In this document: one piece after another, positions 9,886 to 45,996 of the stretch
Position numbering within the stretch: position 1 is the first letter of the stretch
How the letters are laid out: every line of letters begins with the position of its first letter
Assembly (NCBI GenBank): GCA_949289145.1
Contig: CASEML010000019.1
Span: forward strand, 44,110-108,109
Length of the DNA stretch: 64,000 nt
Source of the DNA: an uncultured Eubacteriales bacterium
Lineage (GTDB): Bacteria > Bacillota > Clostridia > Lachnospirales > Lachnospiraceae
Direction: 5' to 3'
Notes under the pieces: generated by a model
What the model saw: the letters and a program-made list of their open reading frames with translations, nothing else
Databases searched by the model: none
What the model was told of the DNA's origin: nothing
Program-made: the position numbers and the translations under genes

Positions 9886-9970
9886 AGAAATTAAAAACAG
9901 CTATGGAAAATAGGCAGGGAATGTTGTAAAATGAAAGTATTATATAAATATTAACTTGGGGAGAAAGCTT

Positions 9971-12900
9971 ATGAAAAATGAATATTATGATTTTATAAAA
10001 GTGTTCGTGGAAAAGTTAATAGATAATGCTTCTGAAAAGGATAATAATGTGGTAGTTGTCAAGCATTATAATACCTTTGAAATTACAAAAAATGACATAG
10101 ACAGACTGGCAGCAGAGTGCGGTAAAGGTGCCTATATGGTATTTTATAAAAAATTTCATGGGGAAGAAATGCTGGAGGCTTGTGATCCATTTTTAAATAT
10201 GATACAGCAAATGTATCAGAAATATTATAGTGAAAGCAGTATAGAGGAGTTTTTAGACTCTTTTGATATATATAGTTTACAGAAATCCGTGTTCAAGACT
10301 TACTTGGAAAGTTCTTTATGTGTAAGAAACGAAGATTTAATTCTTAGTGAGGTTGAACAGGAGAGGGAGATTCTTTTACAGACTATTGTGCGAATATTAT
10401 TGAAAATTTCTGCGGAACATCCGATGCTTATATGTATCAATGGGTTAGATGGTGCTCCTAAGGCAGCGATTGAAATATTGAATCGTCTTTTAGACAGTCC
10501 GGGAAACGGCAAGATACTTATGGTGGCTGCTTACAATGATCTGCGCAGTGTGCTGCCCCATGTCACCAGTGTTTGGGAGCAATATATCAAGCGGCTGGAA
10601 AGTAAGAACAGCATTATTGACGCTTCCCTATTTAACGTGCCGTTAATACAGGAAAACACCGGATTGTTCCGATTTCATGCGGAATCTATTGGTGATTACA
10701 TTATTAAGTTAAATAATATGTTTCAGATGTTTGAGTTTGAACAGGCATCTTATTATTTAGGGATTATATACAAAAAGCTGGAGATGGAACGGCTGAGTAT
10801 CAATGATGTGGAACGTTTTGAAATTATAAAGATTTATGCCAAAATATCCATTTATTGTCAGGATATTGCCAATGCATTGCTGCTTTGTAATTCATTAAAT
10901 GATATATGCAAAAGGCATACTTCTTTCCGGATGCATTATGATTATAATTATTTGCTGGGACTAACTCAGGTTTACAATGTAAAACTGAATATGGCACAAA
11001 AGTGTGCCGATACTTGTTACCGGCTGGCACAGGAGAAGCAGGAAGAATTTCTGATGTTTAAAGCAAAAATGCTCAAACACATGGCAAGTATGTCAGGGTG
11101 GCATAATATTTTGTTTTGTGCCAATGATATAGCAATTGAGCAGAAAATATTACAGGCTGCAGAAAAATACAAGTATTACAATCACCTTGCGCATACTTAT
11201 ATATATGCCTTTGATAATGAGGTAAACTGGTTTGAACCTATACAGGAGATTGAAAAAAAAATTTCTAATTTTCAACGAGGGATGGAAATTGCGAAACAGA
11301 TTGGAAATCAGTATCTGATGACTGTGGGATACCGGAAAAATATTATGCTTTCCTCCATCAATGGTGCTTTTGAAACTACCACATATTATTATGAAAAACT
11401 TTATGAGTTAGTGGGGGACTCTGATCCGGTGAAGGCAGCAGATATCTATAAAGGACTGGGATATAATCTGTGTGCCATAGAAAAATACCAGGAATCTAAT
11501 GCATATTATAATAAGGCAGTTGATATATATTATAATTTTAAAATGATGGACTTTGTAGGAGAAACCTTATATAACATGTCCTTAAATTGTATTTTGGCAA
11601 ATGATTTCGAGACGGCATATGATTATTTGCAGACGTGCATAAAAATTGTAGAAGCACTTCATCTAAATAACTTAAGGGTTTGCAATATCTCTAAATTATT
11701 TGGACTCCTTGCACTGTGCAGTTACCGTCTGGGATTGTATTATAATTGTCAAATGTACTGCGATAATACTATGTTATTTTTAAGTCACAAGCTTAATTCA
11801 TCAGAGGAGGAGCCGGAAAATATCGATCCTTCCTATACAGTATGTGATGATGATCTGTTTTTATATTATTATGTGTCTGGTCTTTTGCAGATGCAGAAAG
11901 GGAATTTCCATCAGGCATTAGAATGTTTGAATAGTGCCCAAATCTATGTGATTCGTTCCGTGGGAAATCAGTTTTTCAGTTACGTGCAGTATTATATCAC
12001 CAGAGCAGAGATTTACCGCAAATTGGGCGATGAAAAGAAAGCATTGCAAGAATTGGACATTGCATATATCTATGCAGAAAAAAACAATGCCCATGAAAAG
12101 ATGGCAATTATAAACACAATAAGAGAAAATAAAGTATGGCAGCCAAGACAGTATGATTTGGGACTTACCAATATTACTATGGAACAGATCAGAGATGCTA
12201 CAGAGCAGGCCGGAATCAATAAGGATTATAAGGAAATAAAACGGCAGATGGATTTTTTGGCGGTATGGCAGAGGATTGTGGATATTACGGGCAAAGAAGA
12301 GGAGGAGCTGATTGTCAATGCCTTGAATTCTTTTGCTTTGAATTTTGGCATCGATGTGGTGGTCTATATCAGTTACACAGAAGAAACTCCAAAGGTATGC
12401 TTTAGCAATGCGAAGGTGAAGCTGACGGGGGAAAAACTGAAGAAACTTACAAAATATTTTGGCAGTCATCGAACAGGTTTCGTGGCGTCAAAAATGCGTA
12501 AGGATTATCGGGAATATCGAGAAGTCATTTCTGTATTTGGTGTAAATGATGTGTGTTCCATGATAGCGGTACCATTTTATGTGGATGAAAAGCTGGATAA
12601 TTTGTTTATTTGCTATATTTTGATGAAGGATAATTGGAATTCACCTATAAAAAAATACATGATGGATGAAAATGATTTCAATGTGTATGCACTGGTATTA
12701 AGCCAGCTGGTAAATGCCATCAGCATGCTGGAGAAACAGCAGAAAATCAACGATATTAATATACAGCTGGAAAATGCAGCGGTTACCGATTACCTGACTT
12801 CACTATTAAATAGAGATGGTTTTTTTGCGAATATCCACAAGCGTGTCACTGAGGCACGGAAAAAGAACAAGAAACTGGATCTGACAGTGCTGTATATTGA

Positions 12901-13324
12901 TTTAGATAATTTTAAATATTATAATGATACATTTGGCCATGACGTGGGGGATCTGATTTTGAAGGAAATATCTAAAATACTGATGGAACAGGCGGAAGAA
13001 GAGGGTTTTGCCACTAGATTTGGCGGAGATGAGTTTCTGATTATTTTAGAACATTCCGATGGAGAAAAAGCTATGAAAAAAGCCAGAGAAGTGCTAAATG
13101 CCATTCTAGATAAAAATGCTTTTGTGGAGGAGATTAAGGAATTTTTAGGCAGAGAAGACATTGTGATTCCCGCAGAGAAAAAAGTATCCTGCTCCATCGG
13201 TGTGGCGCCTATGTCGGAAGTGAAGGATGATAATGATATTTCCAGGGCAATCAAGAGAGCTGATGAGGCTTTGTATGGAATCAAACATTCCACCAAGTGT
13301 GACTGTAAACTGGCGGAAGAATAA
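9971..13324 (+). CDS. STAND-like/TPR/GAF-like protein with C-terminal GGDEF domain
   Basis: 1117 residues, cytoplasmic, no membrane segment. The first about 230 residues resemble a degenerate AAA_16/STAND ATPase: a Walker-B-like 'HPMLICINGLDGAPKAA' is present but no P-loop GxxxxGK. Residues about 240-750 are helical TPR-type repeats; about 765-925 look GAF-like. The C-terminus (from about 938) is a diguanylate cyclase: 'TDYLTSLLNRDGFF', 'LYIDLDNFKYYNDTFGHDVGD' and an intact 'FGGDEF' near 1017. The RxxD inhibitory site is replaced by Glu-rich sequence, so product inhibition is unlikely. Predicted to make c-di-GMP in response to a signal read by the TPR/GAF part. Start ATG 9971 follows GGGGAG; a TTG 15 bp upstream lacks an SD. 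A terminator follows. Confidence 0.8.
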   Translation: MKNEYYDFIKVFVEKLIDNASEKDNNVVVVKHYNTFEITKNDIDRLAAECGKGAYMVFYKKFHGEEMLEACDPFLNMIQQMYQKYYSESSIEEFLDSFDIYSLQKSVFKTYLESSLCVRNEDLILSEVEQEREILLQTIVRILLKISAEHPMLICINGLDGAPKAAIEILNRLLDSPGNGKILMVAAYNDLRSVLPHVTSVWEQYIKRLESKNSIIDASLFNVPLIQENTGLFRFHAESIGDYIIKLNNMFQMFEFEQASYYLGIIYKKLEMERLSINDVERFEIIKIYAKISIYCQDIANALLLCNSLNDICKRHTSFRMHYDYNYLLGLTQVYNVKLNMAQKCADTCYRLAQEKQEEFLMFKAKMLKHMASMSGWHNILFCANDIAIEQKILQAAEKYKYYNHLAHTYIYAFDNEVNWFEPIQEIEKKISNFQRGMEIAKQIGNQYLMTVGYRKNIMLSSINGAFETTTYYYEKLYELVGDSDPVKAADIYKGLGYNLCAIEKYQESNAYYNKAVDIYYNFKMMDFVGETLYNMSLNCILANDFETAYDYLQTCIKIVEALHLNNLRVCNISKLFGLLALCSYRLGLYYNCQMYCDNTMLFLSHKLNSSEEEPENIDPSYTVCDDDLFLYYYVSGLLQMQKGNFHQALECLNSAQIYVIRSVGNQFFSYVQYYITRAEIYRKLGDEKKALQELDIAYIYAEKNNAHEKMAIINTIRENKVWQPRQYDLGLTNITMEQIRDATEQAGINKDYKEIKRQMDFLAVWQRIVDITGKEEEELIVNALNSFALNFGIDVVVYISYTEETPKVCFSNAKVKLTGEKLKKLTKYFGSHRTGFVASKMRKDYREYREVISVFGVNDVCSMIAVPFYVDEKLDNLFICYILMKDNWNSPIKKYMMDENDFNVYALVLSQLVNAISMLEKQQKINDINIQLENAAVTDYLTSLLNRDGFFANIHKRVTEARKKNKKLDLTVLYIDLDNFKYYNDTFGHDVGDLILKEISKILMEQAEEEGFATRFGGDEFLIILEHSDGEKAMKKAREVLNAILDKNAFVEEIKEFLGREDIVIPAEKKVSCSIGVAPMSEVKDDNDISRAIKRADEALYGIKHSTKCDCKLAEE

Positions 13325-13425
13325 GAAGATAACGGAAGTTGGAAAAAGTTTCAGAAAAATAAGGTATAAATTTTTCTGGATATGGTAAGAATAAAAGTGT
13401 GAAATAAAAATGCCATAGAAAAAGG

Positions 13426-13472
13426 AAAAACACATGATGATTTACAATGGGGTAAATTGTCGTGTGTTTTTT
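13426..13472 (+). terminator. Intrinsic terminator after GGDEF gene
   Basis: Stem AAAAACACATGATGATTTAC paired with GTAAATTGTCGTGTGTTTTT, with one small internal loop and a T-run. It lies between the GGDEF and YitT genes. Confidence 0.75.
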
Positions 13473-13501
13473 ATATAGAAAGATATCCGGAGGAAAATTG
13501 T

Positions 13502-14380
13502 ATGGACACAATAGTAAAAAAATCTGATGCAGGAAGAAAATTGAGAAATTTTGCAAGAATGAACTTTGGAGCTGTACTGTATGGCATGGGAATCAGTTTG
13601 TTTTTAGATCCCAACAGTCTGGCACCGGGAGGCGTGGTGGGAATATCAATTATTTTAAACCGTTTCTTGAGTATTGGCACAGGAACATTGTATTTGTTAA
13701 TCAATATTCCTCTTCTTTTGCTTGGCTGGAAGAAACTGGGAGGTAAATTTATAAGGAAAACCTTGTACGTGGTGGTATTGAATACAGTGGTAATCGACGT
13801 TCTCTCCTATGTAAACCCGGTCACCAGAGAGCCTTTGCTGGCTGCTGTGGCAGGAAGCATATTGTTAGGTATTGGTATGGGAACTGTATTTAAATGTGGA
13901 GCTACCACAGGCGGAATGGACATTGTCGTAAAGATTCTTCGCGGCAAGTACAAGCACATTAAGACGGGAAGCCTTTTTTTGATTATTGATATGACCATAG
14001 TCGCTATATCCGGACTGGTATTCCGAAACTTTAACACAGCTATGTACGCGCTGATTACTGTAGCATTAACAGGAAGAACTATTGACTTTATTTTGTATGG
14101 CGGCGACGAAGCAAAACTTATTTTTGTGGTAAGTGATTTGTCAGAACGTATATCGGAACGAATCATCAAAAGCGTAAAGACAGGAATTACCATGCTGAAA
14201 GGGCGGGGGGCATACAGCAACAAAGAAAAAAACATTATCATGTGTGTGGTAAAAAAACAATCTGCCCCAAAAGTGTTGGAAATCGTTAAGCGAGAAGATG
14301 AAAACGCTTTTGTAATTGTAAGCAGTGCCACAGAAACCTTTGGAGAAGGGTATAAAGACTACTTTCAGGATCAGTTGTAA
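13502..14380 (+). CDS. YitT family membrane protein (DUF161 + DUF2179)
   Basis: 292 residues. Five or so hydrophobic helices (about 15-200, with 'LDPNSLAPGGVVGISIIL' typical of the family) are followed by a soluble C-terminal DUF2179 domain (about 215-285, 'GITMLKGRGAYS'). YitT proteins are widespread in Firmicutes and their transport substrate is not established. ATG 13502 is chosen because CCGGAGGAAAATTGT directly precedes it; the in-frame ATG 45 bp earlier overlaps the terminator. The gene ends 14 bp from the converging AbrB-type gene and shows no operon partner. Confidence 0.85.
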   Translation: MDTIVKKSDAGRKLRNFARMNFGAVLYGMGISLFLDPNSLAPGGVVGISIILNRFLSIGTGTLYLLINIPLLLLGWKKLGGKFIRKTLYVVVLNTVVIDVLSYVNPVTREPLLAAVAGSILLGIGMGTVFKCGATTGGMDIVVKILRGKYKHIKTGSLFLIIDMTIVAISGLVFRNFNTAMYALITVALTGRTIDFILYGGDEAKLIFVVSDLSERISERIIKSVKTGITMLKGRGAYSNKEKNIIMCVVKKQSAPKVLEIVKREDENAFVIVSSATETFGEGYKDYFQDQL

Positions 14381-14394
14381 AATTGGAATTTAAC

Positions 14395-15456
14395 CTAAAG
14401 TACCTCTGCCAAAAACTGAAGTGCAACAGGATAAAAAATTACCACACATACAACTCTTAAGGACTGGATAATCGATACCTTAGGTGTGTTGGCGCCGAAA
14501 TCTTCGGCAATCAATGCCAAGTCAGAGGCACCGCCCGGGGCACAGGAAAATAGTGCAGTTACAAAATCCACATCACTGGTTTTATAAAGGATATAAGCCA
14601 GTATCACTACAATGGTAAATAGACCCACCAATAGGATTAAGGCAGGGACAATGGCGGTATACAGATTAGTAATGGATGCTCTGGTAACACTCTCACCGAT
14701 TAATGCTCCGGCACATACTTGGGCAAATTGCTTTAGACCCAGGGGCATATATGCAGTTGATGTGGTTACATTCTGTATTGCAACACCGATCATGGCAAAC
14801 ATTAATGCTCCGGCAGGTATGCCGATATTGTAACCTATTGTGCCGCATACAATAGCAACTACCAAAGTAATAAAAATATTTTTCTTTGTTTTTTCGGCAG
14901 TAACTTTTGGCCCGTCAGAATTGATATTTCTTGTAGCGCTGACTACCCCGGGGTTTTTCTTTTGCAAAAATTTTATCAGCTTTCCAAAAATAGTGGGAAA
15001 CAATCCCAAAATAGAAATTAATCGTACCAGCTGCAGCACAGACACAATAGAAGTATCTGCCCCCATATCAATACTAATAATGGACATATCCACAATACTT
15101 CCCGGTGCTGTGGCAAAGACACAGGTGGCAAGAGAGTAATCTGTCAGGTAATAAAGTCCTACTCCCATGGCAAGACAGGACAGCAGAATACATACCGTAT
15201 TTATGATAGCAGGTTTTATACACTTTTTCAGGGAAACTAATTCATACCGTGTAATCTTGCAGCCGATAAAAAGTCCTGAAATAATCTGAGTCATTAACTT
15301 TAAATTAGAAGGAAAGCATGCTTCTTCAAAAATAACATTAAAAACAGCCACCAGAATCATGGAGCCTACCATGGTCCCGGCGGGAATTTTTAATTTTAAG
15401 GCAATGGCCGCACCTGATAATGCCACCAGAAATGTTAAAGTAATTTGTAATATCAT
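14395..15456 (-). CDS. AbrB-type (PF05145) membrane transporter
   Basis: 353 residues, about ten hydrophobic helices in two similar halves, each with a Gly/Pro-rich 'PGxxxD' helix ('ATAPGSIVDMSIIS' and 'SCAPGGASDLALIAEDFGA'). This is the duplicated AbrB/ammonia-monooxygenase-like transporter family, whose substrates are poorly defined. It is not the AbrB DNA-binding regulator. It is transcribed divergently from the LysR gene, with only 135 bp between starts, so that LysR may control it. A functional link with the ureide cluster beyond LysR is possible but unproven. Confidence 0.8.
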   Translation of the reverse strand: MILQITLTFLVALSGAAIALKLKIPAGTMVGSMILVAVFNVIFEEACFPSNLKLMTQIISGLFIGCKITRYELVSLKKCIKPAIINTVCILLSCLAMGVGLYYLTDYSLATCVFATAPGSIVDMSIISIDMGADTSIVSVLQLVRLISILGLFPTIFGKLIKFLQKKNPGVVSATRNINSDGPKVTAEKTKKNIFITLVVAIVCGTIGYNIGIPAGALMFAMIGVAIQNVTTSTAYMPLGLKQFAQVCAGALIGESVTRASITNLYTAIVPALILLVGLFTIVVILAYILYKTSDVDFVTALFSCAPGGASDLALIAEDFGANTPKVSIIQSLRVVCVVIFYPVALQFLAEVL

Positions 15457-15591: not shown

Positions 15592-16506
15592 ATGTTAAAT
15601 ACAAGACAGTTACATTATGTAATTACCGTAGCAAACGAAAAAAGTATCTCATTGGCAGCTAAAAAGTTATTAATTTCCCAGCCCTCCCTAAGCCAGTATA
15701 TCCAAAAGCTGGAAAAAGAGCTGGGAGTAGAATTGTTTGAAAGAACCAATCCTTTAAGACTTACCTATGCAGGGGAGATTTTTCTGCGTTCTGCTAAAAA
15801 AATGCTGAATACAGAAGAAGAGATGAACCGGATTCTGAAAGATATCAGTGAAGAAAAATTAGGAAGAATCATAGTAGGAACAGGTTACTATAATAGTACG
15901 GTCTTTTTGCCACAAGTAATTGAAACCTATTTTAAAGAATATCCCGATGTAAAAATTGAGGTGGTGGAAAAGATTGAACCTAAATTAAAAGAATTGGCAC
16001 GAAATGGAGAAGTAGATTTGGTGATTGCCACAGAGCATGTGGAAGATTCAGATTTTCAGGAAATTCCTTTGGCACAGGAAGAATTCCTGTTGGCAGTACC
16101 AAAAGAAATCGCCCAAAAAGCCATGGCAGGAGAAGCAGCAGAAGACCTTTCTTATGTAGATATTACTGTATTTTGCAATGCACCATATATTATTCTAGGA
16201 ATTCAGGTATATATTAATCGTCTGTTTGATGAAATATGTAAAATCAGTGGTTTTACCCCTAAAAATGCTCTTACTTGTACCAGTTTAAACGCAGCATATG
16301 CTATGGCAAAGGCAGGTGTGGGAATTACTATTGTTCCCTACAGCACTTACCGTTATGACAAAAGTGAAAATGTAGCTTACTATAAAATAGAAAATAACAA
16401 TGTGGTACGTGGCTTAAATATGTATTATAAAAAAGACCGTTACTTAACAAAAACCATGAAGCGTTTTATAAAGATATGCATGGAATTGGCAGAAGAAAGC
16501 TTCTAA
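15592..16506 (+). CDS. LysR family transcriptional regulator
   Basis: 304 residues. N-terminal winged helix (1-65) with the LysR recognition region 'SISLAAKKLLISQPSLSQYI' followed by 'LGVELFERT'. The effector domain (about 90-300) has the periplasmic-binding-protein fold. It is divergent from the AbrB-type transporter and just upstream of the Liv-type ABC operon. LysR proteins usually control the divergent gene and often the adjacent catabolic operon, binding a pathway intermediate. Here a cyclic ureide or its product is a plausible inducer (inference). ATG 15592 follows AAGGGAACC. Length is normal. Confidence 0.88.
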   Translation: MLNTRQLHYVITVANEKSISLAAKKLLISQPSLSQYIQKLEKELGVELFERTNPLRLTYAGEIFLRSAKKMLNTEEEMNRILKDISEEKLGRIIVGTGYYNSTVFLPQVIETYFKEYPDVKIEVVEKIEPKLKELARNGEVDLVIATEHVEDSDFQEIPLAQEEFLLAVPKEIAQKAMAGEAAEDLSYVDITVFCNAPYIILGIQVYINRLFDEICKISGFTPKNALTCTSLNAAYAMAKAGVGITIVPYSTYRYDKSENVAYYKIENNNVVRGLNMYYKKDRYLTKTMKRFIKICMELAEESF

Positions 16507-16567
16507 AAATGTGGGAAAAATGCAGAATATAATCAAAAAATTATGGACAATATAATTATTTTGGTAT

Positions 16568-16596
16568 TTGAAGTTATGATGATGTCATGATAATAT
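16568..16596 (+). promoter_or_regulatory. Candidate promoter of the Liv-type ABC operon
   Basis: TTGAAG, a 17-bp spacer, then TAATAT. It lies upstream of the attenuator-like hairpin and 130 bp before the solute-binding protein start. Confidence 0.5.
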
Positions 16597-16627
16597 CTAT
16601 TCAAATCACAAATAAAGTTTTTAAACG

Positions 16628-16665
16628 AAGGAGTTTATATGCAATGGCGCATATAGACTCTTTTT
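16628..16665 (+). terminator. Strong hairpin with T-run in leader of ABC operon (terminator/attenuator)
   Basis: A 15-bp stem (AAGGAGTTTATATGC / GCATATAGACTCTTT, two G-U pairs) with a 6-base loop and a T5 tail. The left arm contains an SD-like AAGGAG followed by ATG, giving a five-codon reading frame (MQWRI). It is either the LysR terminator or, if the promoter at 16568 is used, an attenuator of the operon. Confidence 0.7.
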
Positions 16666-16725
16666 GTATATATGGCGATAGAAAATTTATGCTTTCGCTT
16701 GTTTCAAAAAAGGAGGACATCATTT

Positions 16726-17931
16726 ATGAAGACATGGAAAAAGTTTGCAGTATTAACAATGATTGGAGCATTGGTTACAGCATCCCTAACTGGGTGTGGC
16801 GGTTCTGATTCGGAGTCAGATACAATTAAGGTTGGTTCCATTCATCCCTTGACAGGTTCCTATGCGTATGAAGGACAGCAGGTAGTCAATGCGCAACAGC
16901 TGGCTATTGATGAAATCAACGCAGCAGGAGGAATCGCTTCTTTAGGAGGAAAAAAATTAGAACTTGTGGTAGGAGATTCTCAGGGAAATGCAGATACGGG
17001 TGCCAGCGAAACAGAACGGCTGATTTCAGAAGGCGTTACAGCAGTTACAGGTACTTTCCAGTCTGGTGTTACATTAACTTGTATGCAGAAAGCAGAACAA
17101 AATCAGATTCCCTTTGTAGTAACCGTAAGTGCAAATGTAGGTTTGATGGAAAACGGATTTGAGTACGCATATCGTATTCAGCCTAATGCAAGCACCTTTG
17201 TAGAAGATTTCTTACAGTATATGGGAGAAATTAGAACAGACGACTTAAAAACCGCAGTACTGATTCATGAAGACTCCTTAACAGGGACAGATACAGGCGA
17301 TTTAGTGGTAGAGGGATTTGAACAGACAGGTCTTGAACTGTTAGACAGAATTACTTATTCGGCAAGCACTACAACCTTAAGTACCGAAGTTACAAAGATA
17401 GCTGAATTAAAGCCGGATGTATTAATTACAAATGGTTATTATGCGGATACCTCTCTTCTTGTAAAGGAGTTAAATGAAAGAGGAATTACATTCAAACTGG
17501 TATGCGGTGTGGCAAACGGAGGTATTTCAGATCCTAAATTCATTGAAGATTTCGGGGACACCGTAGAGAACTTTATGGATTTAAACTACAGATTTAATCC
17601 GAACAATGAAAAAACCAGTGAATTATTGGCTTCCTATAAGGAACAGTATGGAGAAGAAATGTCAGTCCATGCTGTGTGGGGCTATGAAAGTATTTATGTA
17701 TTGGCAGATGCCTTGGAAAGAGCAGCCAGTACAGATCCTGAGGCAGTGAAAACTGCTTTAGATGAAACAGAAATCTCAGACCATGTACTGGCACAAAATG
17801 GGCCGATCACATTTGATGAAAAAGGAGAAAATGTGAATGCAGCAGGTGTATTTCTTCAGATTCAGAATGGAAAACATGTTGTAGTATATCCAAAGGAATT
17901 TGCAGAAGCAGAAATGATCATCGGGAAATAA
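16726..17931 (+). CDS. Liv-type ABC transporter solute-binding lipoprotein
   Basis: 401 residues. Lipoprotein signal peptide with lipobox 'SLTGC', then a type-1 periplasmic-binding fold beginning 'IKVGSIHPLTGSYAYEGQQ', the usual LivJ/LivK opening. ATG 16726 follows AAAGGAGG; upstream in-frame starts lie in the hairpin leader. It is first in a five-gene HAAT-family transporter followed by hydantoinase, ene reductase and nitrilase genes. HAAT systems carry branched-chain amino acids but also urea, short amides and other polar amides. The downstream enzymes argue for a ureide or pyrimidine ligand rather than leucine (inference). Confidence 0.88.
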   Translation: MKTWKKFAVLTMIGALVTASLTGCGGSDSESDTIKVGSIHPLTGSYAYEGQQVVNAQQLAIDEINAAGGIASLGGKKLELVVGDSQGNADTGASETERLISEGVTAVTGTFQSGVTLTCMQKAEQNQIPFVVTVSANVGLMENGFEYAYRIQPNASTFVEDFLQYMGEIRTDDLKTAVLIHEDSLTGTDTGDLVVEGFEQTGLELLDRITYSASTTTLSTEVTKIAELKPDVLITNGYYADTSLLVKELNERGITFKLVCGVANGGISDPKFIEDFGDTVENFMDLNYRFNPNNEKTSELLASYKEQYGEEMSVHAVWGYESIYVLADALERAASTDPEAVKTALDETEISDHVLAQNGPITFDEKGENVNAAGVFLQIQNGKHVVVYPKEFAEAEMIIGK

Positions 17932-17960
17932 TCTGATAATTCACAAAGGAGGTAACATTT

Positions 17961-18827
17961 ATGAATGCATCAATTTTGCAGTCTCTGATCGATGGCATGC
18001 TAATGGGAGGAGTGTATGCATTAGCAGCCTTAGGAATATCATTAATTTTCGGAGTTATGAAAATAACAAACTTTGCCCATGGAGCACTTATTACAGTAGG
18101 TATGTACATCACATATGAATGTTGTACTTTATTAGGTGTTACCCCTTATGTGGCACTCCCTATTACTATGGTGCTTATGTTCCTGATAGGTTACATTATT
18201 CAAAAGATATGTTTAAATCCAATTATGGGGGCAGGGGGACACAATCAGTTACTGCTGACCCAGGGAATTGCCATTGTGTTAGAAAACCTGATTTTAGTAT
18301 TGTTTACAGCCAATTATAAGTCTGTAACGGTTCCGGGATTTGAAACAGCTATCCGATTAGGAAGTATTACAATCAACAAGCCCAAATTAGTAGCCTTTTT
18401 ATTTGTGGCAGTGATTTCAGTTGGCATCTATCTTGTTTTAAATAAAACAGATTTGGGAAAAGCCATCAGAGCAACAAGTACGCAGCCGGATGGCGCTACC
18501 TTAATGGGAATTGTAGTATCAAAGATTAATTGTATTGCTTTTGGTATTGGTGTAATGTGTGCAGGTATTGCAGGAGCTTTATTAATTCCCACACAAAATA
18601 TTAGTCCCACCAGTGGTAATGCATACTCTTTAAAATGTTTTGTTATCGCGGTATTCGGCGGATTGGGAAATATTTGGGGAGCTGTAATCGCAGGATTGAT
18701 CATTGGGGTGGTAGAAGCTTATTCAGCCTTATTTTTAGGAGGCTCCTGGAGTGAGATGGTCATTTATGTAATCTTTATTTTAACATTAATTATTAAGCCT
18801 ACAGGTCTATTAGGAAAGAAGGGATAA
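17961..18827 (+). CDS. Liv-type ABC transporter permease (LivH-like)
   Basis: 288 residues, about eight hydrophobic helices, with the family pattern 'DGMLMGGVYALAALGISLIFGVMKITNFAHGA' shared out over the first 40 residues and a C-terminal 'AVFGGLGNIWGAVIAGLIIGVVE' loop-helix contacting the ATPase. It forms the membrane channel with the following LivM-like gene. AAGGAGG precedes the ATG; the next gene starts 1 bp after its stop, so translation is coupled. Confidence 0.9.
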   Translation: MNASILQSLIDGMLMGGVYALAALGISLIFGVMKITNFAHGALITVGMYITYECCTLLGVTPYVALPITMVLMFLIGYIIQKICLNPIMGAGGHNQLLLTQGIAIVLENLILVLFTANYKSVTVPGFETAIRLGSITINKPKLVAFLFVAVISVGIYLVLNKTDLGKAIRATSTQPDGATLMGIVVSKINCIAFGIGVMCAGIAGALLIPTQNISPTSGNAYSLKCFVIAVFGGLGNIWGAVIAGLIIGVVEAYSALFLGGSWSEMVIYVIFILTLIIKPTGLLGKKG

Positions 18828-18828
18828 T

Positions 18829-19857
18829 ATGGAGAAGAAAAATACAGGAACTTTAAGTCCTTTACTAAAAAGAGGCATAAATACTACAAGTGGAGGAATG
18901 TCAAGGCTTCAGATTATCATAGTATTGGCAGTCAGTATTTTCGTGTTATTGACACCACAGTTTCTTAGCAGCTATCGTTTGAATCTTGTGATCACCATTT
19001 TAACAGCCGCCTATTTTGCTCAGTGCTGGAATCTGATGAGTGGTTTTACCGGACAGTTTTCTTTTGGACATGCAGCGTTCTATGGTGTAGGTGCTTATAT
19101 GTCAAGCATTCTGTCGGTAGACTATGGAGTTAATCCATGGATTGGAATGTTGGCGGGAATGTTAGCAGCAGGTATTGTGGCAGCTATTATCGGATACTTA
19201 TCTTTCCATTACAATTTAAGGGGCGACTACTTTGCACTGGCAACCATGGCATTCTGTGAAATTTTAAGGGTTATTACCAAAAATACGGAATTTTTCCATG
19301 CCTCCACAGGTGTAACTATTTCTTATTCCAAAGACTGGAAACAGATGCAGTTTGGTGGAAAAGAAGGATATCTTTATGTGGCATTTATTATGCTGGCGGC
19401 AATTACCTTTGGTTTGTATAAAATCAGAAAAACAAAAATAGGCTTGTATTTTGTGGCAATCAGAGAAAATGAAGACGCGGCAAAGGCACTTGGCATTAAT
19501 GCGTTTCGCTATAAAATGACAGCGTTAATAGCAAGTGCAATGCTTACAGCCCTTGCAGGAACCTTTTATGCACAATATTACTTATACATAGATCCAACAA
19601 TCTGTTTTGGAAATTCAGTGTCTGTCAGTGCTATCACACCATGTATTATCGGCGGCACGGGAACCATTTTTGGACCAATTATAGGAGCTGCTATTATTGA
19701 ACCTATATCAGAATTGACAAATGCATTATTATCCCAGTATGTAGGACTGAATATGGTAGTATACGGATTAATTCTTGTATTGGCCATTCTTCTCATGCCA
19801 AATGGCGTAGTAGGCTTGTTTCACAAATTGAGAGCAAAGAAGCAGAAGGGAGAGTAA
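18829..19857 (+). CDS. Liv-type ABC transporter permease (LivM-like)
   Basis: 342 residues, a cytoplasmic N-terminal extension of about 25 residues and then eight or so helices. Conserved stretches are 'MSGFTGQFSFGHAAFYGVGAY' (split in the family block near 75) and 'IRENEDAAKALGIN' near 215, the cytoplasmic coupling loop. It is the second permease of the HAAT system. It starts 1 bp after the LivH-like stop and ends 2 bp before the LivG-like start, a tightly coupled operon. Confidence 0.9.
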   Translation: MEKKNTGTLSPLLKRGINTTSGGMSRLQIIIVLAVSIFVLLTPQFLSSYRLNLVITILTAAYFAQCWNLMSGFTGQFSFGHAAFYGVGAYMSSILSVDYGVNPWIGMLAGMLAAGIVAAIIGYLSFHYNLRGDYFALATMAFCEILRVITKNTEFFHASTGVTISYSKDWKQMQFGGKEGYLYVAFIMLAAITFGLYKIRKTKIGLYFVAIRENEDAAKALGINAFRYKMTALIASAMLTALAGTFYAQYYLYIDPTICFGNSVSVSAITPCIIGGTGTIFGPIIGAAIIEPISELTNALLSQYVGLNMVVYGLILVLAILLMPNGVVGLFHKLRAKKQKGE

Positions 19858-19859
19858 GT

Positions 19860-20591
19860 ATGGGCGTATTATTAAAAGCAGAAAATGTAACCAAAAGATT
19901 TGCCGGACTGACAGCTGTGGATTCTGTGAATCTGGTCATCAACCAAGGTGAGATCATAGGTCTGATTGGGCCTAATGGTGCCGGAAAAACTACATTTTTC
20001 AACTCTATTACAGGATTTTACACTGCCGATGAAGGCAAGGTGGAATTTGACGGGCAGGATATTACAGGTCTTACCACATATCAAAATTGTAAAGCAGGCA
20101 TGGCAAGAACATTTCAGATTGTGCAGCCCTTTGGCAATCTCACCGCATTAGAAAATGTTATGGTAGGTGCTTTTAACAGAGTAAACTCTTATGCTGAGGC
20201 AGAAAAGATTGCAAAAGAAATGATTGATTTTGTGGGAATGACAGATAAAACATATGATATTGTAGCCGATTTAAACATCGGAGACCAGAGAAAATTAGAA
20301 ATGGCAAGAGCCTTAGCCACAAAACCAAAACTTTTATTGCTGGATGAAGTTATGGCTGGTTTAACACCCACAGAAATCGAGGGTGTCATTGAATTAGTGA
20401 AAAAAGTTCGAAAAGCAGGAACTACCATATTAATGATCGAGCATATTATGGCAGCATTAATGACACTTTCTGACAGAGTAGCGGTATTAGACCATGGAAA
20501 AAAGATTGCGGAAGGAACACCGACGGAAATTACATCCAATGAAAATGTAATTGAATCATACCTTGGCAAAGCATATAAGAAGGAACAATAA
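19860..20591 (+). CDS. Liv-type ABC transporter ATPase (LivG-like)
   Basis: 243 residues. Walker A 'GPNGAGKTT' near 38, a LivG-type spacer with 'RTFQIVQPF', a Walker B 'LLLLDEVMAGL', and the H-loop 'MIEHIM'. The expected ABC signature LSGGQ is replaced by 'NIGDQRKLEMARAL'. This divergence (no SGG) deserves note, since the partner LivF-like ATPase keeps a canonical LSGGQQ, so one of the two nucleotide sites may be degenerate. It powers uptake by the upstream permeases. Confidence 0.88.
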   Translation: MGVLLKAENVTKRFAGLTAVDSVNLVINQGEIIGLIGPNGAGKTTFFNSITGFYTADEGKVEFDGQDITGLTTYQNCKAGMARTFQIVQPFGNLTALENVMVGAFNRVNSYAEAEKIAKEMIDFVGMTDKTYDIVADLNIGDQRKLEMARALATKPKLLLLDEVMAGLTPTEIEGVIELVKKVRKAGTTILMIEHIMAALMTLSDRVAVLDHGKKIAEGTPTEITSNENVIESYLGKAYKKEQ

Positions 20592-20602
20592 GGAGGTGCA
20601 AT

Positions 20603-21307
20603 ATGCTTCATATAGAAGATTTATATGTAAATTATGGAAATCTGCAGATCATTCAGGGAGTATCCATGGAGGTGCAAGATGGAGAAATGATTTCTCTGGT
20701 AGGTTCCAATGGAGCCGGAAAAACTACTTTATTAAAGGCGGTTTCAGGGTTGAAAAGCAGTAATTCAGGAAAGATTGTGTTTGATGGAGCAGATATAACA
20801 AAAATGACGGCGCCGGAAATTGTAGACCATGGTGTGGTACAGATTCCAGAGGGAAGAAAACTGTTTCCGGATATGACGGTGTTAGAAAACTTAGAATTAG
20901 GTTCTTACTTAAAGGGACCAAAGAAAAAAAGGGCAGAAAATCTGGAATATGTATACCATATGCTGCCGGATTTAAAAATAAAGGCAAACCAGCCGGCAGG
21001 CGCATTAAGCGGAGGTCAGCAGCAGATGGTTGCCATAGGAAGAGGATTAATGAGCTGCCCTAAGCTGCTTATTTTTGACGAGCCTTCCATCGGATTGTCA
21101 CCGCTTCTTACAGATATTATGTTTGATATTATAGAGAAAATTAAAAAGGACGGAGTTACCATTATGCTGGTAGAACAGAATGTGCAAAACGCATTAAAGT
21201 TAGCGGACAGAGCTTATGTGTTAGAGCAGGGAAAAATTGTAATGAAAGGTCTGGCGGCAGAGCTTTTGGAAAATGAAGATCTGAAAAAAGCATATCTTGG
21301 AATGTAG
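20603..21307 (+). CDS. Liv-type ABC transporter ATPase (LivF-like)
   Basis: 234 residues, the normal LivF length. Walker A 'GSNGAGKTT', family motif 'VQIPEGRKLFPDMTVLENL', signature 'LSGGQQQMVAIGRGLM', Walker B 'LLIFDEPSIGLSP', H-loop 'LVEQN'. Second ATPase of the HAAT transporter. AAGGAGG precedes the ATG, 11 bp after the LivG-like stop. The hydantoinase gene follows after 20 bp with its own AAAGGAGG, so transporter and enzymes form one operon. Confidence 0.9.
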   Translation: MLHIEDLYVNYGNLQIIQGVSMEVQDGEMISLVGSNGAGKTTLLKAVSGLKSSNSGKIVFDGADITKMTAPEIVDHGVVQIPEGRKLFPDMTVLENLELGSYLKGPKKKRAENLEYVYHMLPDLKIKANQPAGALSGGQQQMVAIGRGLMSCPKLLIFDEPSIGLSPLLTDIMFDIIEKIKKDGVTIMLVEQNVQNALKLADRAYVLEQGKIVMKGLAAELLENEDLKKAYLGM

Positions 21308-21327
21308 CCCAAAAAGGAGGATTCATT

Positions 21328-22722
21328 ATGAATATGTTAATTAAAAATGGAACTGTAGTATTTGAAAACGAAGAACGGAAGGCAGATATTTTAGTAAAAA
21401 AAGGAAAGATTGCAGCTATTTTATCACCTGGAGAGTGCACGGAAGAAAATGTAGAAATATTAGATGCTAAGGGTTTGTATGTTATGCCTGGAGCCATTGA
21501 TCCACATCAGCATTTAGGGCTGTATAACAGCTTTGAGGAATCTTATGAGGAAGATTCTAAAAGAGAAGTTATTGGAGGATTAACCTCTATTGTAGAATAC
21601 CATAGAGGGAAAGGGAATTATTTTGAAACGGTTTCGGAAGAGATTGCCATTGGAGAGAAGCATTCTATTGTGGATTTTGCCATTTCTTTAGGGCTTTGTG
21701 CCAAAAAGCATATGGAGGAGTTAGAAGATTATGTAAGCAAATTGGGCATTACTTCCTTTAAATTTTTTTTTGACAAGCAGGATATTGCCCATACCTTTTA
21801 CGGGATTTCCAAAGAGGAAGCCTTAACTTTGGATAAAGCGGACTTATACTATATATTAAAAAAACTGGCAGAAATTGATCCCAAAATGCTTTTATGCGTT
21901 CATTGCGAAGATCCAGATATGTTTCGGGCATTTTTAAAGGATAGACAGGAGATGTATCCAAATTCCATCAGTATGAAAGACTGGGATGCAGGAAGACCTG
22001 ATTTTGCAGAGTCTAACTGCGTGGCAGGTGCCATGTTAATTAACGGTGAAGTAAATGGCAACATGTATATTGTGCATACCTCTGCAAAAAAGAGTTTAGA
22101 TGTGTATAAAGCACTTTCCGAAAATATGAATTGTGGAAAAGTTACCATTGAAACCTGTCCACAATATTTATTGCTTGACAATAGTGTAAGTATCGATGCG
22201 AAAGTGAATCCGCCCCTTCGCTCTAAGGAAGACAATGAGGCGCTCTGGGAAGGTATCCGGACAGGAATCGTAAAAACCATTGGTACAGATAATGTACCTG
22301 TCACAAAGGCGCAAAAATATACAAGAGACGGAAAACATTGTGATACCTTATGGGAAACCTGGGTAGGCTTTTCTACTCCTGGAATTGCCATGCCTGCCTT
22401 GATTAGTGAAGGTTATCATAAAAGAGGAATCCCCCTTTCCACATTGTCTCAGATATTAAGCATAAATACGGCAAGAGTATTCAATTTGCCGGGAAAGGGA
22501 GAAATTAAGGTAGGATATGATGCGGATTTTGCATTAATAGATTTGAATTGGGAGAGAACCATTACACCAGAATTATTTGGATGCTCTGATTTCTCCATTT
22601 ATGAAGGACTATCCTTTAAAGGATGGCCCAGATATACTATAAGCCGTGGTGAAATAATACAAAAAGACGGTCAGATTACGGCTAAGCCCGGCAGAGGAAA
22701 ATATATCCGCCGTTTCTTGTAA
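21328..22722 (+). CDS. Dihydropyrimidinase/hydantoinase family cyclic amidohydrolase
   Basis: 464 residues, amidohydrolase TIM barrel. All metal ligands of the D-hydantoinase/dihydropyrimidinase group are visible: H60xH62 in 'DPHQHL', the carbamylated-Lys position K145 in 'TSFKFFF', H192 ('VHCED'), H250 ('VHTSA') and D321 ('GTDN'). It should open a cyclic ureide or imide, for example dihydrouracil to N-carbamoyl-beta-alanine. It lies between the transporter genes and an ene-reductase gene, whose start overlaps its stop by one base (TAATG). The loops that set specificity differ from textbook dihydropyrimidinases, so hydantoin, allantoin-like or imide substrates remain possible. Cytoplasmic. 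Confidence 0.85.
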   Translation: MNMLIKNGTVVFENEERKADILVKKGKIAAILSPGECTEENVEILDAKGLYVMPGAIDPHQHLGLYNSFEESYEEDSKREVIGGLTSIVEYHRGKGNYFETVSEEIAIGEKHSIVDFAISLGLCAKKHMEELEDYVSKLGITSFKFFFDKQDIAHTFYGISKEEALTLDKADLYYILKKLAEIDPKMLLCVHCEDPDMFRAFLKDRQEMYPNSISMKDWDAGRPDFAESNCVAGAMLINGEVNGNMYIVHTSAKKSLDVYKALSENMNCGKVTIETCPQYLLLDNSVSIDAKVNPPLRSKEDNEALWEGIRTGIVKTIGTDNVPVTKAQKYTRDGKHCDTLWETWVGFSTPGIAMPALISEGYHKRGIPLSTLSQILSINTARVFNLPGKGEIKVGYDADFALIDLNWERTITPELFGCSDFSIYEGLSFKGWPRYTISRGEIIQKDGQITAKPGRGKYIRRFL

Positions 22723-23705
22723 TGCCTATGGTGAGTAAAGTATTTACTCCTGTGGATTTGCAGGAGATGCATATTAAAAACCGGGTGTGCAGGGCGGCTG
22801 TCAATGATTATTCGGGAAATTTTGACGGAACTGTTTCTAAAGAGCAGTGCCGATTATACCGGGAATTAGCGAAAAATCAAGTGGGGCTCTTTATCACGGG
22901 AAATTTTTATGTGAATAAGGAAGGTCAGCTGGATGCCACTGAGAATGATATATCGGAGGAAATCTGCTGCTTATCGGCGGCTGAGCTGGCACATATTGTC
23001 CATCAGTATGAAGCAAAAATAGTAATTCAGATTTCTCATGCAGGCAAAAAAAATAAAATATCAAAGAAAAATGCATTAAAGTATTCCAAAATACAAAATC
23101 TTTCAGAGGAATGTTTTAAGCAAATCAAAAGAGATTTTATCAAGGCATGTATACACTGCAGAAAGTCAGGGGCAGATGGAGTTCAGTTACATTTTGGGCA
23201 CGGCTATCTTTTGAGTGACATTCTGGAACACTATGAAAAAGGACTGGAATTTGCTGAAGAATTGCTGGCAGGAATACGGGAAAAACTTCCCAAATATCCG
23301 GTTTTTGTGAAGGTGAACAGTAATATTTCGGAAAAAATCTATTATGGTTTCGGAGCATTGTGCCAAAAGTATTTTGTAACAGCAATAGAAATCAGCGGAA
23401 GCAATTTTGCTGAAAAGACCAAGGAAGATCATTTGTATTATTTAGATAAAGCCATCGAATTAAAGAAAATATGTAATGTACCCATGATTTTAACCGGAGG
23501 TATCCGTACCATAGAAGATGCAGCTAAGGTGTTGGGGTCAGGAATAGAAATGGTGGGAATGGGGCGTCCTTTTCTGTGTGAGCCTGACCTTTTGCTGAAA
23601 TGGGAAAATCAGGGCAGTAAATGTATCAGCTGTTGTAAATGTTTTGGGCTATATCAGGATGAAGGATATCGATGTGCTTTAGAGAAAGGAAAAGAAGTAT
23701 GGTAA
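22722..23705 (+). CDS. Short Old-Yellow-Enzyme-type flavin reductase with Fe-S motif
   Basis: 327 residues. An FMN TIM barrel of the NADH:flavin oxidoreductase (OYE) family: 'NRVCRAAVNDYSG' at the N-terminus, 'GADGVQLHFGHGYLLSDIL' with the H157..H160 pair at the substrate-binding site, and 'ILTGGIRTIEDA' plus 'VGMGRPFLCEPDL' for FMN phosphate. After the barrel come C301xxC304xxC307 and C318, matching the [4Fe-4S] ligands of trimethylamine dehydrogenase and 2,4-dienoyl-CoA reductase. The FAD/NADH domain that normally follows is absent, so electrons must come from another protein. In context it may reduce a C=C bond of a pyrimidine or related ring before hydantoinase opening (inference). It overlaps both neighbours. 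Confidence 0.75.
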   Translation: MPMVSKVFTPVDLQEMHIKNRVCRAAVNDYSGNFDGTVSKEQCRLYRELAKNQVGLFITGNFYVNKEGQLDATENDISEEICCLSAAELAHIVHQYEAKIVIQISHAGKKNKISKKNALKYSKIQNLSEECFKQIKRDFIKACIHCRKSGADGVQLHFGHGYLLSDILEHYEKGLEFAEELLAGIREKLPKYPVFVKVNSNISEKIYYGFGALCQKYFVTAIEISGSNFAEKTKEDHLYYLDKAIELKKICNVPMILTGGIRTIEDAAKVLGSGIEMVGMGRPFLCEPDLLLKWENQGSKCISCCKCFGLYQDEGYRCALEKGKEVW

Positions 23706-24619
23706 AAAAGATAAAGGTATTAGGAATGCAGCCGGGTACGGTAGCAGACGGAATGACAAATGAAGAATATGTAGATAAGCAGATTGCATATATGGAAAAT
23801 GCAGTAAAAAAGGAACAGCCCTATTTGGTGGCATTTCCGGAGATGATGACTGGAATTTATTTTGGGTTTGTAAGAGAAAAGAGATGGTTTCAGTACGCAG
23901 AGGATTTTCTAACGGGTCCGACTACCACAAAAATGTTGGCAAAATCAAAGGAATTAAATGTACATATAGCATATTCGCTGTTTGAAAAAGCAATGGAAAA
24001 CGGCAAAGAAGTTTATTACAATACTATGGGGTTAGTATCTCCCATTCGAGGTGTCATCGGAAGGTACCGAAAAATACATATTCCGGGAGGTGATTTAAGA
24101 TATACTCCAGTATATGAGAAATATTACTTTAACTCAGGAGACAAGCTGCCGGTATTTGAACTGGATAATGGCGTTAAGGTATCTATGGTGATTTGTTATG
24201 ACCGTTCCTTTCCGGAAGTATGGAGAACCTATTATTTAAAAGGAGCACAGATTGTTATTGCAGCTACCTGTACCATGGGACTGCGTAAGGACATGTTTGT
24301 AACAGAATTACAGACAAGAGCTTTGGAGTCCCACACTTATGTAATCGGGTTAAATAGAGCAGGGGAAGAAAAAACGGAAAATGAAAAAGAACCAAGACTC
24401 CATTTTGGAAAGTCTTTGATCATTAATCCCTTAGGGGATGTGATTTCCTCCTTGGAAGAACAGCCCTGGGCGTATGTAACTGGTGAACTAGACTTAGAAC
24501 AGCAGGAATATGCAAGAGGACGGTTAAACTGGCAAAGAGACAGACATCCGGAATTGTATGGAGCAGTATCGGATCCATATTATTCCATGGAGGGTCTTAT
24601 TTTTGAGAAAGGATTTTAA
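23699..24619 (+). CDS. Nitrilase-superfamily carbon-nitrogen hydrolase (carbamoylase-like)
   Basis: 306 residues. The nitrilase triad is complete: E48 ('AFPEMM'), K125 ('GRYRKIHIP') and C166 ('VICYDRSFPE'). Length and motifs fit N-carbamoyl amino acid hydrolases and beta-ureidopropionases, which release CO2 and ammonia from N-carbamoyl-beta-alanine or N-carbamoyl amino acids. This would be the step after the hydantoinase two genes upstream. ATG 23699 overlaps the ene-reductase stop by 7 bp and is preceded by AAAGGAAAAGAAGT; a further upstream ATG lies well inside the previous gene. Biased context does not exclude an omega-amidase-type activity. Confidence 0.82.
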   Translation: MVKKIKVLGMQPGTVADGMTNEEYVDKQIAYMENAVKKEQPYLVAFPEMMTGIYFGFVREKRWFQYAEDFLTGPTTTKMLAKSKELNVHIAYSLFEKAMENGKEVYYNTMGLVSPIRGVIGRYRKIHIPGGDLRYTPVYEKYYFNSGDKLPVFELDNGVKVSMVICYDRSFPEVWRTYYLKGAQIVIAATCTMGLRKDMFVTELQTRALESHTYVIGLNRAGEEKTENEKEPRLHFGKSLIINPLGDVISSLEEQPWAYVTGELDLEQQEYARGRLNWQRDRHPELYGAVSDPYYSMEGLIFEKGF

Positions 24620-24639
24620 ATGTTAGGAGGGGAAATGTT

Positions 24640-25263
24640 ATGGATAATTATGTGATTACGATTGCACGTGGCTTAGGAAGCGGCGGCAGTCATATTGCAA
24701 AAGCGTTATCAAAAAAATTAAATATTCCGTGGTATGATACAGATATCCTTCGTATGGCATCTGATTTAAGCGGAATTAATGAACAGTACTTTTTTGAAGC
24801 AAATGAAAAGATTGATAAAGGAATCATTACCATTGCCAGCTCAAAGGGAGCTTACACAGGAAAAATTTATGATGAAGGAGATAAAATGTTTTTATCCAAT
24901 GAAAACTTGTTTAATTATCAGGCGAAAGTAATCCGTTCCTTGGCCTTGAACGGACAAGAATCCTGTATCATCATTGGAAAAGCTGCAAATTATATTTTGA
25001 GGAATTTTCCTAATGTGTTGAAAATTAATGTGCAGGCGCCTATGGAATATTGTATAGGAAATGTAATGAGACGTACTTCAAAAAAACCCAACGAGGCGGA
25101 AAAAATCATTACAAAAACAAATAAATACCGCAGTAATTATTATAAATATTACACTGGCGGCAGATGGCTGGACCCAAGAGAGTACGATTTGTCTATTAAT
25201 ACCGCAGCCATCAATGAAGAAATGGCTGTTGAGCTGATTATTCATACTTTAGGAAAAATGTAA
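24640..25263 (+). CDS. Cytidylate-kinase-like family protein
   Basis: 207 residues, matching the cytidylate kinase-like family (PF13189): it starts 'ITIARGLGSGGSHIAKALSKKL' (P-loop-like GxGSGG) and continues with 'PWYDTDILRMAS'. It probably phosphorylates a nucleotide or small molecule; the family's substrates are largely unassigned. It follows the nitrilase by 20 bp with AGGAGGGG, so it may be the last gene of the ureide operon, and a pyrimidine link would fit. Its stop codon sits in the conserved end sequence of a collapsed MITE-like element. Confidence 0.75.
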   Translation: MDNYVITIARGLGSGGSHIAKALSKKLNIPWYDTDILRMASDLSGINEQYFFEANEKIDKGIITIASSKGAYTGKIYDEGDKMFLSNENLFNYQAKVIRSLALNGQESCIIIGKAANYILRNFPNVLKINVQAPMEYCIGNVMRRTSKKPNEAEKIITKTNKYRSNYYKYYTGGRWLDPREYDLSINTAAINEEMAVELIIHTLGKM

Positions 25264-45965: not shown

Positions 45966-45996
45966 GTAGTCCATGATAAATGAAAGGGAGTTTATT

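Follow-up and report, generated by a model that had tools for sequence, protein, structure and literature searches.

What would a ten-gene cluster that joins a nutrient importer to a hydantoinase-like enzyme and an Old Yellow Enzyme (OYE) degrade? The question is raised by positions 15592-25263 of a 64,000-nucleotide stretch of DNA from an uncultured Lachnospiraceae bacterium (contig CASEML010000019.1 of assembly GCA_949289145.1; hereafter the window), which an earlier note had read as a possible cyclic ureide or pyrimidine catabolic operon using an OYE in place of PreTA or dihydropyrimidine dehydrogenase (DPD). We find a rare, genuine gene set that, judged by its sequence, seems suited to taking up a small ring compound with nitrogen in it and opening the ring, and the account we favour, at about even confidence, is a scavenging operon headed by a LysR gene and fed by a HAAT importer, whose substrate would be a cyclic ureide, most likely of the hydantoin type, and in which the OYE is optional. 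Among the open-licence papers searched we found no description of an operon joining a hydantoinase or dihydropyrimidinase with an OYE.

The ten genes form a co-directional cluster, and the family of each is confirmed by Pfam. A gap of 219 bp separates the LysR gene from the binding-protein gene, downstream of which only gaps of 1-29 bp or small overlaps occur (1 bp between HydA and OYE, 7 bp between OYE and Nit). The genes are as follows.

15592-16506, + strand: LysR-type regulator (Pfam HTH_1 and LysR_substrate); a LysR gene heads five of five operon copies, at 37-41% identity to this one
16726-17931, + strand: HAAT solute-binding lipoprotein (Peripla_BP_6), 51-74% identical in four relatives
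17961-18827, + strand: HAAT permease 1 (BPD_transp_2)
18829-19857, + strand: HAAT permease 2 (BPD_transp_2)
19860-20591, + strand: HAAT ATPase, LivG type (ABC_tran and BCA_ABC_TP_C)
20603-21307, + strand: HAAT ATPase, LivF type (ABC_tran)
21328-22722, + strand: HydA, a cyclic amidohydrolase of the hydantoinase/allantoinase/dihydropyrimidinase group (Amidohydro_1), with all metal ligands and Lys150
22722-23705, + strand: OYE-family flavin mononucleotide (FMN) reductase of 327 residues (Oxidored_FMN, PF00724; 101.9 bits, cut-off 27)
23699-24619, + strand: Nit, a nitrilase-superfamily C-N hydrolase (CN_hydrolase), with the triad E48-K125-C166
24640-25263, + strand: cytidylate-kinase-like protein (PF13189, Cytidylate_kin2; 162.4 bits), which closes all five operon copies

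The binding protein probably starts at 16726, where a ribosome-binding sequence lies upstream, and not at the listed open reading frame (ORF) start of 16672; upstream sequence likewise makes 23699 the probable start of Nit in preference to the listed 23672. A promoter and terminator scan gave no excess over shuffled sequence (34 found against a shuffle mean of 33.9, and 3 against 6.5).

A four-row HydA alignment served to scan the genome contigs of 84,980 species for relatives by short peptide patterns; the scan may omit the window's own genome and may miss operon copies, and the best 80 of 330 relatives, at 79 loci, were kept. Among these, HydA is 69-78% identical at four loci (L085-L088), and the next locus down stands at 44%. 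The order LysR-HAAT-HydA-Nit-PF13189 is common to these four and the window, and since it recurs in four other genomes the clustering is not due to chance. The gene set and order first read from the window (LysR, a complete HAAT importer, HydA, OYE, Nit and the PF13189 gene) stand, as do the full set of hydantoinase metal ligands and the complete nitrilase triad. Identity to the window is 69-84% for the binding protein, permeases, ATPases, HydA and Nit, except in L088, where the binding protein falls to 51% and permease 2 to 58%; the PF13189 protein is 57-61% identical. Three copies (L085, L086 and L087) carry extra genes, for an MmgE/PrpD protein, a second hydantoinase (HydB), an isochorismatase-family hydrolase and a DASS symporter, and L088 is the smallest copy, with importer, HydA, Nit and PF13189 plus a second LysR gene.

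The operon is rare. At 1e-75, HydA is matched in two of 397 genomes of the family, drawn evenly from a larger group: one is the window's own and the other G553, where the locus coincides exactly with part of L086. At 1e-40 it is matched in 49 of 392 genomes of the order, of which only G384, listed in the same family as the window, comes near 78% (the next genome stands at 40%); the stretch of G384 that bears the operon is the same, letter for letter, as L085. Nit was not found at 1e-40 in the four other searched genomes of the window's genus. L085 comes from a Lachnospiraceae bacterium of sheep rumen and L087 from Butyrivibrio sp. RGIG9232 of water-deer rumen, and the name of the L086 organism, Merdinaster equi, suggests a horse host.

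Some features of these and more distant relatives may be recorded here. The MmgE/PrpD genes of the larger operons (L085:5789-7114, L086:5125-6456 and L087:5782-7122) lie among the importer genes. In L090, a Bacilli metagenome-assembled genome, an MmgE/PrpD gene at 31% identity (12916-14274) lies near a set of HydB-like, isochorismatase and HAAT genes. In L091 (1-8095; the same contig as L077, reversed) a HydA relative at 38% stands beside a sodium:solute symporter, the citrate lyase alpha-subunit gene CitF and a regulator with a PucR-type helix-turn-helix.

According to one report (PMC8860565), dihydropyrimidinase holds its binuclear metal centre with His59, His61, Kcx150, His183, His239 and Asp316, and all six positions are matched in HydA by H60, H62, K145, H192, H250 and D321, invariant in 16 of 16 alignment rows, the window's own protein included. 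The same report describes substrate contacts through the side chain of Tyr155, a ligand contact in the Pseudomonas aeruginosa enzyme, and the main chain of Ser289 and Asn337; the Tyr155 position sits in the lid of Bacillus stearothermophilus hydantoinase, according to a second report (PMC9863593). In the 16-row alignment HydA has Lys, Asn and Val at these three positions, a comparison to be read with the caveats that loop length varies around Tyr155, so that the alignment there could be off, and that Ser289 and Asn337 act through the main chain. Lysine (Lys150 of HydA) occupies the Tyr155 position in eight of eight operon HydA and HydB rows, the other eight rows having Tyr (seven) or Phe (one); HydB has Val and Pro at the Ser289 and Asn337 positions. 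Tyr, Ser and Asn are all kept in both rows from recognised Pyd (reductive pyrimidine) clusters, L103 and L108, and in L105 and L093, and neither Ser289 nor Asn337 is kept in the rows of L089-L092. Even with these caveats, HydA is better not classed among the dihydropyrimidinases.

HydA is under the cut-off in all 25 NCBIfam matches listed: 222.1 bits against 393.25 for the dihydropyrimidinase equivalog TIGR02033, and 238.5 against 631 and 236.1 against 357.85 for the allantoinase models NF004839 and TIGR03178. A hydantoin route of the ergothioneine type was considered and rejected, HydA scoring 187.2 and 156.7 bits against ErtD models with cut-offs of 650 and 600. Dihydroorotases bear the signature HxHxR, and HydA reads H60-Q-H62-L-G64 at that place. 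The solved structures that HydA most resembles in sequence are those of an allantoinase and of D-hydantoinases. The allantoinase AllB provides both its best Protein Data Bank sequence match and its best NCBIfam models, and shares with it a long second active-site loop and a GF/GI loop in place of PNG; the likeness ends at the curated cut-offs and at the operon's lack of an M20-type allantoate amidohydrolase. HydA marks a hydantoinase subfamily with a pocket lysine where most aligned relatives have tyrosine, and the importer encoded beside it is directly testable with candidate ligands.

The second-step enzymes give a weak pointer to the substrate. Nit keeps the catalytic triad of N-carbamoyl-D-amino-acid amidohydrolases (E48, K125 and C166, numbered from the start at 23699), these enzymes are its nearest solved structures, and the motif CYDRSFPE, with the first Arg after the Cys, is kept in five of five Nit copies. 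The isochorismatase-family protein of L087 is nearest, among solved structures, to N-carbamoylsarcosine amidohydrolase. Together these relatives weakly suggest N-carbamoyl alpha-amino acids as intermediates, that is, five-membered hydantoins as substrates. One of the closest known parallels is the pairing of D-hydantoinase with N-carbamoyl-D-amino-acid amidohydrolase, in which the same two superfamilies stand close together and which supplies the nearest solved structures for Nit and some of the nearest for HydA; the window differs in the Lys of HydA at the Tyr155 position, in two contact residues of Nit (below) and in having no hydantoin racemase among the Pfam-typed operon genes.

We infer that the genes may serve one pathway, in which the HAAT importer would take up the ring compound, HydA, as a binuclear-metal cyclic amidohydrolase, would open the ring, and Nit, as a cysteine hydrolase, would strip off the carbamoyl group thus exposed, releasing ammonia and CO2 and yielding an amino acid. 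Importer, HydA, Nit and PF13189 make up the core, which L088 shows in its smallest form, and the optional OYE would saturate a C=C bond beside a ring carbonyl, so that unsaturated variants become substrates of HydA. No OYE-family gene was found by PF00724 search anywhere in the assemblies of L085, L086 and L088, which also give no PreA-like match, and the pathway in these copies can therefore start at ring opening.

A number of observations weigh against hydantoin scavenging as set out here. The structure model of HydA (pLDDT, the predicted local distance difference test, 93.5) has dihydropyrimidinases as its nearest folds, Foldseek placing these at ranks 1-6, a D-hydantoinase at 7 and an allantoinase only at 21, at 24-29% identity throughout. 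The D-carbamoylase contacts Asn173 and Arg176, which PMC11503299 proposes from docking and simulation only, are replaced in Nit by Tyr167 and Ser170. The best NCBIfam model for Nit is N-carbamoylputrescine amidase, at 123.2 bits against a cut-off of 410.25. Hydantoin catabolism does not explain the MmgE/PrpD protein, the DASS symporter or the second hydantoinase of the larger operons, the gene absences were read from draft assemblies (88% complete in the case of the window), and the OYE may have no connection with the ring.

The reductase has the marks of the OYE family. It exceeds the PF00724 cut-off and keeps the HxxH pair, with Q103, H157, H160 and Y162 all retained, so that the family named by the earlier note stands; it proves to be a short form with a C-terminal CX2CX2CX10C motif and without a nicotinamide adenine dinucleotide (NAD) domain. 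Two of the five operon copies have it, the window and L087, in both cases between HydA and Nit and with TAATG at the HydA/OYE junction; in the others the HydA-Nit spacing is 14 bp (L085), 13 bp (L086) and 35 bp (L088). No clear ribosome-binding site precedes the TAATG, and an alternative Met 6 bases on corresponds to the start of the L087 protein in the alignment. In a 27-row tree, whose rows were cut at 420 residues, the window and L087 proteins are sisters (support 100/99) at 44% identity. Neither has the NxRxDxYGG loop that is common among OYE proteins and that a pattern finds in 22 of the 25 other rows and in five of five further OYE proteins outside the tree; one of the three exceptions, L017 (a 732-residue frame), fills just 16% of its truncated row, so that the lack of the motif there carries no weight. 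Cysteine motifs of the CX2CX2CX10C kind occur at the C-terminus in 23 of the 27 rows. The GC content of the gene (0.387) matches that of the window (0.386), and there is therefore no sign of recent arrival. Mobile elements were searched as well: all 208 plasmid records were below 60% identity (at most 27.2% in the five matches listed), and none of 183 pattern matches in viral contigs was a relative. For the OYE, a two-row alignment gave only a poor structure model (mean pLDDT 59.8), which was set aside.

Since a second genus has a sister protein in the same slot, the OYE counts as a genuine operon member. The clostridial PydAc enzyme, non-homologous to OYE, takes electrons from ferredoxin (PMC7332683), and by analogy the Cys motif without an NAD domain would suit ferredoxin or another low-potential donor. 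We put forward only tentatively, as a possibility we consider rather unlikely, that rumen-type Lachnospiraceae have recruited an OYE subfamily with an Fe-S-like motif and no NxRxDxYGG loop to saturate the ring at the start of a pathway for a cyclic ureide or imide, with ferredoxin and not NAD(P)H as donor; this would be a second and non-homologous solution to the PydA/PreA step. Should the enzyme act on the operon's ring substrate, it would provide an unrelated route to the job of dihydropyrimidine dehydrogenase, in anaerobes with herbivore-gut relatives. Other short Cys-motif OYEs of the order (L032, L033, L240 and L241) are 35-40% identical and end in the same kind of motif; they differ in keeping the NxRxDxYGG loop and in having no HydA-like gene in the stretches read, and in one genome (G170) the contig of a short Cys-motif OYE gene also has a HydA relative (32% identity), at a distance of about 31 kb.

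The main rival to the hydantoin account is catabolism of a cyclic imide, in which the OYE would reduce a maleimide-type ring to a succinimide, HydA would open it to a half-amide and Nit would release a dicarboxylate. This rival arises because MmgE/PrpD and DASS hint, if weakly, at a dicarboxylate product: the nearest solved structures to the MmgE/PrpD protein of L087 are the cis-aconitate decarboxylase IRG1 and an IDS-epimerase, and a DASS symporter would fit the same product. OYE enzymes classically reduce N-ethylmaleimide, the omega-amidases of the nitrilase superfamily act on half-amides, and the pocket lysine of HydA could bind a carboxylate. The nearest solved relatives of the second-step enzymes are, however, hydrolases of N-carbamoyl amino acids, and we know of no abundant natural maleimide in the rumen, though no search was aimed at one; we regard the imide reading as unlikely, if the strongest of the alternatives.

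In a less probable alternative the OYE would be a passenger: a reductase of general use, placed in the operon by chance, that does not act on the operon's substrate. Its absence from three of five copies would fit, as would the divergence of the two OYEs, which at 44% identity fall well below the 71-82% between window and L087 for HydA, Nit, the binding protein, permeases and ATPases and the 61% for PF13189, and so weigh against a tight role; yet the LysR protein is lower still, at 41%. None of four further OYE neighbourhoods contains a hydantoinase, and two of them (L240 and L241) look by eye like sugar-gene clusters. What speaks against mere chance is that two genera share the slot, the TAATG junction, the monophyly of the protein and the loop deletion.

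For the pyrimidine pathway of the earlier note, with the OYE in place of PreTA or DPD, HydA as dihydropyrimidinase and Nit as beta-ureidopropionase, the genome search for preTA raised with that claim gives an initially encouraging answer. No PreA-like protein was found by family search in the window assembly (G000; 2.93 Mb in 170 contigs, 88% complete), which has no OYE-family gene besides that of the operon. Across the five operon genomes, G000, G396, G397 and G399 give only PyrD and weak matches. The L087 genome (G398) is the only one with PreA-like proteins beyond PyrD, in frames of 508 and 364 residues with 133 and 118 bits (G398:C101:2960-3853, L212, and G398:C117:16918-17769, L213), with no recognisable Pyd cluster around either as far as the contigs reach, and it has three OYE-family genes besides the operon's. 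The idea of an OYE present because PreA is missing thus agrees with the window and disagrees with L087, while neither gene is seen in L085, L086 and L088. The operon reductase itself belongs to PF00724 and lacks the combination of DHO_dh (PF01180) and ferredoxin domains that marks PreA and PydA.

Known pyrimidine clusters are also built differently. That of Acetitomaculum ruminis (L103) comprises a class III aminotransferase, an iron-type alcohol dehydrogenase, an NMT1-type importer, a dihydropyrimidinase-like protein, a PydA-like protein (PF14691, PF01180 and Fer4), an M20 hydrolase and PF13189, and the clusters of L108 (from ORFs and BLAST) and L228 (from BLAST, in a genome of the window's family) resemble it as far as read. 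In outline the window operon is alike: both have an importer of the ABC type, a cyclic amidohydrolase, a C-N hydrolase and a terminal PF13189 gene, and in both the reductase is of FMN type, bears Fe-S motifs and lacks an NAD domain, but only the amidohydrolase superfamily and PF13189 are in fact shared: the importer is HAAT and not NMT1, the reductase an OYE and not a DHO_dh-fold protein with ferredoxin domains, the hydrolase a nitrilase and not M20, the aminotransferase and alcohol dehydrogenase are missing, and HydA is only 29-30% identical to the dihydropyrimidinase-like proteins of L103 and L108.

Although the OYE, with its catalytic residues, Fe-S-like motif and missing NAD domain, has the layout expected of an enzyme fed by ferredoxin like PydAc (PMC7332683) and the HydA model lies nearest to dihydropyrimidinases by Foldseek E-value, the altered contact residues of HydA, the absence of the OYE from three of five copies, the presence of PreA-like proteins beside it in L087 and the different make-up of the Pyd clusters leave the uracil or 5-fluorouracil reading possible but disfavoured, the least probable of those considered here. 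Of the earlier interpretation, importer-linked hydrolysis of a cyclic amide with the OYE as a true member is supported; the pyrimidine substrate and the replacement of PreTA are not, and a substitute uracil or 5-fluorouracil pathway is not supported by the sequence, a caution against reading 5-fluorouracil metabolism from gene names alone in such operons.

PF13189, found both here and in the Pyd clusters, was considered as a pyrimidine marker and rejected, being mostly a neighbour of HAAT importers and widespread in the order. It is matched at 1e-30 in 166 of 385 genomes of the order, and among the best 18 contexts outside the operon (L214-L231), judged by reading, 15 have a HAAT importer at or near the gene, one is a Pyd cluster (L228) and two are other (L216 and L227); the gene of L215 was placed by coordinates, and in L231 two ORFs intervene. 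PF13189 also occurs at eight of 14 loci where a Hyd gene precedes a DHO_dh-family gene, two of the remaining six being cut by contig ends. A kinase-like protein tied to nutrient-importer operons is worth study.

Elsewhere in the window, a gene for a membrane protein with an AbrB duplication (14395-15456) lies divergent from the LysR gene, and BLAST at 1e-6 found no relatives of it in L085-L094. Positions 9956-13324 encode a protein of 1122 residues that combines tetratricopeptide repeats with a GGDEF domain at the C-terminus. Two alpha-amylase-family enzymes are encoded at 45973-48111 and 58817-62029, the second of which carries CBM26 starch-binding modules.

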